NCBI GenBank assembly: GCA_014376645.1
Contig: JACMRD010000129.1
Span: forward strand, 1 to 55,440
DNA length: 55,440 nt
Reading direction: 5' to 3'
Source: Herminiimonas sp.
GTDB taxonomy: Bacteria > Pseudomonadota > Gammaproteobacteria > Burkholderiales > Burkholderiaceae_D
The notes under the pieces were generated by a model. The model was given only the letters and a program-made list of their open reading frames with translations, was not told where the DNA came from and did not search any database. The first letter of the stretch is position 1. Each line of letters opens with the position of its first letter. Positions 2,852 through 7,866 of the stretch are shown in pieces. The translations under genes and the position numbers were made by a program.

Positions 2852-3678
2852 TGGCACTCGTTAAAGTCAAACCAACCTCACCAGGCCGTCGTGGCATGGT
2901 CAAGGTGGTTACACCCGACCTCTACAAGGGTCGTCCATTCGACGCTCTGACAGAATCGCAGTCGAAAAGTGCTGGCCGTAACAACAACGGTCACATCACG
3001 ACCCGTCATATAGGCGGTGGTCACAAGCAGCAGTATCGCGTGATCGACTTCAAGCGTACCAAGGATGGTATTCCGGCAAAAGTCGAACGGATTGAATACG
3101 ATCCGAACCGTACTGCCAATATCGCGTTGGTCTGCTATGCAGATGGCGAGCGTCACTATGTCATCGCCACAAAAGGCATGGCCGTTGGCGACCAGTTGAT
3201 GAGCGGTTCACAAGCGCCGATCAAGTCGGGCAACTGCCTGCCGATCCGCAATATTCCAGTCGGCACGATCATGCACTGCGTCGAGATGTTGCCTGGCAAG
3301 GGTGCCCAGATGGCACGCACAGCCGGCGCTGGCGTCGTTCTGATGGCGCGCGAAGGCGTCTACGCTCAGGTCCGCCTACGCTCCGGCGAAGTCCGCCGTG
3401 TTCACATCGAATGCCGTGCTACGGTTGGCGAAGTGGGCAATGCAGAGCACAGCTTGCGCAAGATCGGTAAAGCTGGTGCGATGCGCTGGCGCGGTGTTCG
3501 TCCTACCGTTCGCGGTGTGGTCATGAACCCGGTCGATCACCCGCATGGTGGTGGTGAGGGTAAGACAGCAGCTGGTCGTCATCCAGTTTCGCCTTGGGGC
3601 CAACAGACTAAGGGCAAGAAGACGCGTCGCAACAAGCGCACGACGTCGATGATTGTCTCGCGTCGTGGCAAGAAATAA
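2851..3678 (+). CDS. rplB: 50S ribosomal protein L2
   Basis: L2 is needed for subunit joining and peptidyl transferase activity. The frame shows the conserved [18 protein letters not shown] stretch and the essential-histidine motif [20 protein letters not shown] near residues 223-242. Length is 275 residues, as in relatives. Several positions in the N-terminal third differ from what I recall for close relatives (for example [17 protein letters not shown]), but no domain is missing. Confidence 0.97.
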
Positions 3679-3688
3679 GGGATAGCAC

Positions 3689-3964
3689 ATGACACGTTCA
3701 CTAAAAAGAGGGCCTTTCTGTGACGCCCACCTGGTCAAGAAAGTCGAGACCGGGCAGGCGACCAAGGACAGGTAGCCAACCAAGACATGGTCACGGCGGT
3801 CGACCATCATGCCGGATTTCATTGGCCTGACGATCGCCGTACACAACGGCAAGTTGCATGTGCCGGTGTACATTTCGGAAAACATGGTTGGTCACAAGCT
3901 CGGCGAATTTGCGCTGACCCGGACGTTCAAGGGCCATGCTGCTGATAAGAAGGCTAAGAAATAA
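3689..3964 (+). pseudogene. rpsS: 30S ribosomal protein S19 gene with an in-frame TAG codon
   Basis: S19 binds the 30S head with S13 near the tRNA sites. From the ATG at 3689 the frame reads MTRSLKRGPFCDAHLVKKVE and meets TAG at 3773-3775 (codon 29). Past it, the same frame continues through [20 protein letters not shown] and [20 protein letters not shown] to TAA at 3962-3964, giving a full-length 91-residue S19 if the TAG is read. A lysine (AAG) is expected there. Nearby changes include Arg for Lys at codon 28 and Thr where Ile is usual at codon 31. rplB is 10 bases upstream and rplV 4 bases downstream. It may be a nonsense mutation, a sequence error or a suppressed codon. Confidence 0.85.
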
Positions 3965-7560: not shown

Positions 7561-7866
7561 ATGGCAAAACTGGCACTGATTAACCGTGAAATCAAGCGCG
7601 CTGACCTGGTGAAGAAATTCGCTGGTAAGCGTGCCGAATTGAAGGCAATCATTGATGACCAATCGAAGTCGGAAGAAGAGCGCTACGAAGCGCGCCTGTA
7701 GTTGCAGGCGCTTCCTCGTAACTCTGCTCCGACCCGCCATCGTAATCGTTGCGCATTGTCTGGTCGCCCGCGTGGCACTTTCCGTAAATTCGGTCTGGGC
7801 CGTATCAAGCTCCGTGAAATCGCCATGCGCGGCGAAATTCCCGGTATGACTAAAGCCAGCTGGTAA
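7561..7866 (+). pseudogene. rpsN: 30S ribosomal protein S14 gene with an in-frame TAG codon
   Basis: S14 is an essential 30S head protein. The frame starts [20 protein letters not shown] and meets TAG at 7699-7701 (codon 47), after YEARL. The same frame then continues [20 protein letters not shown] and [20 protein letters not shown] to TAA at 7864-7866. The result is a 101-residue S14 of the zinc-free class if the TAG is read through. The expected residue is Lys (AAG), one base away from TAG. No frameshift is present. It sits between rplE and rpsH with normal spacing and a normal ribosome-binding site. This is the same kind of lesion as in rpsS, 3.9 kb upstream. Confidence 0.85.

Follow-up and report, generated by a model that had tools for sequence, protein, structure and literature searches.

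In-frame TAG codons in the rpsN and rpsS genes of a fragmented draft genome are probably local consensus errors

The in-frame TAG codon that interrupts rpsN, the gene of ribosomal protein S14, probably arose, like the TAG in rpsS (S19) of the same ribosomal array, through a local error in the consensus sequence of a fragmented draft, a cause that we infer from the surroundings of the two codons. The window analysed here is one contig (C224, 55,440 bases) and bears the S10-spc-alpha ribosomal array. The draft genome to which it belongs amounts to 3.38 Mb in 320 contigs and is estimated to be 89.5% complete with 2.43% contamination; judging from this state, the draft would be a metagenome bin. 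The nearest named loci are from Oxalobacteraceae, such as Noviherbaspirillum autotrophicum and Undibacterium terreum. Two odd patches of sequence in an otherwise clean array, the finding of each gene only once, the fragmentation of the draft and the use of TAG as an ordinary stop are best explained together by a local consensus error. Coordinates of the features are collected in Table 1.

An earlier note on this DNA, made from the sequence alone, had placed a TAG at codon 47 of rpsN with the rest of S14 continuing in frame, and our analysis confirms both the stop and the open frame that runs on to a normal TAA. The region downstream of the stop gives a match to PF00253 at 7702–7860, which spans domain positions 2–54 of 54. 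The replaced lysine had been called conserved. This is correct at the level of the family, where codon 47 is AAA in 23 and AAG in 21 relatives of an aligned set of 44, which pools genomes and named loci and in which some species are perhaps counted twice. However, it does not extend to a wider set of 81 loci, where the residue varies (K in 37, G in 15, E in 12, A in 11 and Q in 6). Similarly, the proposed single A-to-T change is valid if the ancestral codon was AAG, but the same-genus relative, a draft genome (G001), has AAA at codon 47, from which TAG differs by two bases.

The presence of a second amber codon at a lysine position, in rpsS, was also borne out. Codon 29 of S19 is AAG in each of the 12 aligned relatives. 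A match to S19 is present in 103 of the 116 genomes of the family and only the copy of this genome contains a stop, while the search of the same-genus draft for S19 gave no match. A match to S14 was obtained in 374 of the 399 genomes of the order, and among the matches listed a stop within S14 occurs in this genome only. In the array itself, rpsN and rpsS are the only two of 24 genes checked that have an internal stop. The genome search for an S14 paralogue that the earlier note had called for yielded none, and the 89.5% complete draft yields one S14 and one S19.

Table 1. Positions in the window of the two interrupted genes, their in-frame stops and the neighbouring private changes.
Feature	Position	Strand	Remark
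rpsS (S19)	3689..3964	+	interrupted at codon 29
S19 patch: private K7R, A22G and K28R, and I31T	3707..3781	+	K7, A22 and K28 each invariant (12/12); I31 a variable residue
In-frame TAG, S19 codon 29	3773..3775	+	Lys in 12/12 aligned relatives
rpsN (S14)	7561..7866	+	101 codons + TAA; interrupted at codon 47
In-frame TAG, rpsN codon 47	7699..7701	+	Lys in 44/44 aligned relatives
Open frame 3' of the rpsN TAG, first codon TTG	7702..7866	+	contains the PF00253 core
S14 private change Q60H	7738..7740	+	Q in 44/44
S14 private change T67S	7759..7761	+	T in 44/44; 81/81 in the wider set

Both stops are accompanied by further changes that are private to this genome; those of S14 (Q60H and T67S, in a patch of codons 47–67) do not figure in the earlier note, and the patch of S19 covers codons 7–31. 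With the stops excluded, such changes occupy 5 of 148 invariant columns in S14 and S19, while the 22 remaining genes together have 15 in 2,651 (p = 0.003, one-sided Fisher test), a comparison which serves as a check and not as a blind test because the two genes were picked for their stops. Outside the patches both genes are clean, with zero changes at residues invariant in the relatives in codons 1–46 of S14 and codons 32–91 of S19. Any single relative has 0–2 private changes in S14 and 0–1 in S19, and the highest sum for both genes is 3 (L053). As would be expected of a consensus error, implausible changes lie close to the stop in both genes while the remainder of each is free of them. However, clusters in some relatives weaken this observation: at the base level the window has 7 private bases within 90 bases starting from 3703 (0 of 500 shuffles), and clustering is likewise significant in other loci, for example L062 and L044 (0 of 500 shuffles). 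Two independent amber codons had been put forward as a pattern in need of explanation. The pattern stands, but with private changes packed around both TAGs one cause, a local consensus error, is likelier than two separate biological lesions.

Private changes are not in excess in the window as a whole. Over the whole array 22 of 2,801 columns are private, where the relatives range from 0 to 13 per 1,000, and for deeply conserved columns, among which S19 is scarcely counted, the window takes the median place among 78 loci. Private changes are not significantly more frequent in the first part of the array (14 of 1,258 columns) than in the remainder (8 of 1,543; p = 0.087). Within the S14 patch (window 7699–7761), the sequence departs from the same-genus relative at 12 bases, and T is the new base at 10 of them. 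This lean towards T has a shuffle p of 0.13 over the whole array and is absent from the S19 patch, and a single sequencing chemistry was rejected as the cause. The two-colour artefact described in the available part of PMC13218037 consists of T>G/A>C changes and does not match the A>T change considered here.

The frequency of in-frame stops in the rest of the genome was estimated by comparing 957 proteins predicted from 1.2 Mb of a complete relative (G031) with 497 kb (15%) of this genome, where homologues at a threshold of at least 45% identity cover 142 genes and 38,509 residues. Ten stops fall inside the alignments. Eight of them were discarded, since the flanks agree in no more than 17 residues and several of these stops are at the ends of alignments or within gaps, which leaves the stops of S14 and S19 as the only convincing ones in the 142 genes. 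No frameshift candidate was seen among 132 genes with a homologue, in agreement with the earlier statement that the other genes of the array are free of frameshifts. Screens for split genes by coding potential were set aside in favour of this homologue census, because shadow frames on the antisense strand dominated the output of the first (40 candidates here and 16 in the same-genus draft), while a stricter version (13 and 3 candidates) returned mostly apparent neighbouring genes sharing a frame and missed both known stops.

The same census in the same-genus draft (36 genes, 8,614 residues) gave five stops, of which four were discarded and one stands. This is an in-frame TAG at a lysine codon (L142:13731, G001 contig C19) of a gene which we take to be cytochrome-like, and the contig ends 111 bases away in a run of 14 G. 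Such runs are a recognised signature of two-colour sequencing. In the window, the copy of this gene has lysine at the corresponding codon.

TAG is an ordinary stop in this genome. Of 97 genes whose ends were compared with a relative, 43 close with TGA, 38 with TAA and 16 with TAG, and infA of this very array terminates with TAG. Release factor 1 is intact, as prfA scores 533.2 bits against a cut-off of 423.25 and has no internal stop. A code in which UAG is reassigned was rejected in view of the TAG terminators, the intact RF1 and a census with only two convincing stops in 142 genes. The tRNA inventory proposed in the earlier note did not reveal a tRNA with a CUA anticodon among 29 Rfam matches from an incomplete draft with an incomplete tRNA set; anticodons were called for 27 of the 29, and CUA in none. 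Two tRNA fragments at contig ends (L153:1–57 and L154:8165–8220) were read by eye from their loops as Lys(TTT) and His(GTG), and it is possible that the contigs break at these places through repeats of the draft's other tRNA genes.

The pyrrolysine system invites comparison, as it decodes UAG and the TAGs here stand at lysine positions. Pyrrolysine is a lysine derivative, although its known targets do not include ribosomal proteins. The best match to PylS in the incomplete genome scores 29.4 bits and stays below the cut-off of 178.15, which is exceeded in 1 of 14 control genomes, and pyrrolysine decoding was rejected for want of a match over the cut-off in the draft.

Could the TAGs be real and nevertheless translated, by an amber suppressor tRNA or through strong readthrough, to give complete S14 and S19 proteins while TAG remains a stop elsewhere? 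Amber suppressor tRNAs would permit readthrough of UAG with RF1 present, both stops are at lysine codons, as is that of the same-genus draft, and the incomplete tRNA set means that a suppressor could be absent from the draft. However, the 29 tRNA matches without CUA, the intact RF1, the share of genes that end with TAG and the PylS score below the cut-off all speak against it, and suppression leaves Q60H, T67S, K7R, A22G and K28R unexplained. We therefore regard translation through the stops as very unlikely. A bolder version appears highly improbable: that a betaproteobacterium with a working RF1 inserts an amino acid, probably lysine, at UAG in two essential ribosomal genes by way of an undiscovered suppressor tRNA, which would make ribosome production dependent on suppression, and that the lysine-codon TAG of the sister species belongs to the same habit.

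Other explanations accept the stops but give them a different meaning. The copies may be decaying, with intact genes of S14 and S19 in the tenth of the genome that the draft lacks, or the assembled lineage may itself be dying. The completeness of 89.5% and the additional private changes in both genes are in line with this suggestion. However, nearly every genome with a match has a single S14, and a few have two, among the matches listed, while S19 gives a single match in each of 103 genomes. Decay should moreover spread across genes, whereas the changes sit in patches and the other array genes have no internal stop, and we consider it very unlikely. A minority or mixed-strain allele that entered the consensus is likewise very unlikely: bins merge strains and the contamination estimate is 2.43%, but a second allele was not seen in the draft, where each gene has a single match. 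The least probable proposal, to which we give hardly any credence, is that S14 is truly split, with a head of 46 residues ending at the TAG and the conserved core restarting at the TTG at 7702. Other bacteria have short forms of S14 without this head, TTG is the very next codon, and the open frame that follows keeps the PF00253 core (positions 2–54). However, there is no sign of design, as the TTG is a sense codon at this place in relatives without the stop (L032–L035 and L037). A split would also leave S19 unexplained, where the first in-frame ATG past the stop is codon 41, beyond conserved residues.

If a local consensus error is responsible, short stretches of the contig would carry wrong bases, two of which happen to create stops. 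Such bases might stem from shallow or low-quality read cover, or from the collapsing of closely related reads, and the living organism would have an ordinary codon at the site and a normal S14. The TAG of the same-genus draft, which also arises at a lysine codon where the sequence is poor, favours this explanation. Several observations point the other way. Both sites lie in the interior of a 55-kb contig; the 132 genes are without a frameshift candidate and the overall rate of private changes in the window is unremarkable; L062 and L044 have clusters of private changes, and L053 has three in the same two genes. Furthermore, each stop is a TAG in place of a lysine codon, and the direction of the base changes is not common to the two patches.

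Our literature search found no paper on this case. False in-frame stops in draft genomes are discussed in PMC8629427, and the cases in the part of that paper available to us share with ours a small number of stops, a standard code and a suppressor tRNA that was not found. According to the same part, the false calls stem from pseudogenes (in yeasts) and from contaminating contigs, and the bacterial code changes known at the time reassign UGA. In contrast, the surroundings of the stops described here suggest wrong bases, and the gene lies within its array.

Were the TAGs real, a bacterium with RF1 retained would need suppression to make essential ribosomal proteins, a highly surprising state. 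The case illustrates that recoding can be mimicked by a handful of wrong bases in a draft, and that private changes adjoining a stop offer a useful check.

A further cluster of five private bases was seen in rplB (window 2942–2969). It was rejected as a third patch, as codon 36 of L2 varies in the wider set, and this cluster is probably natural.
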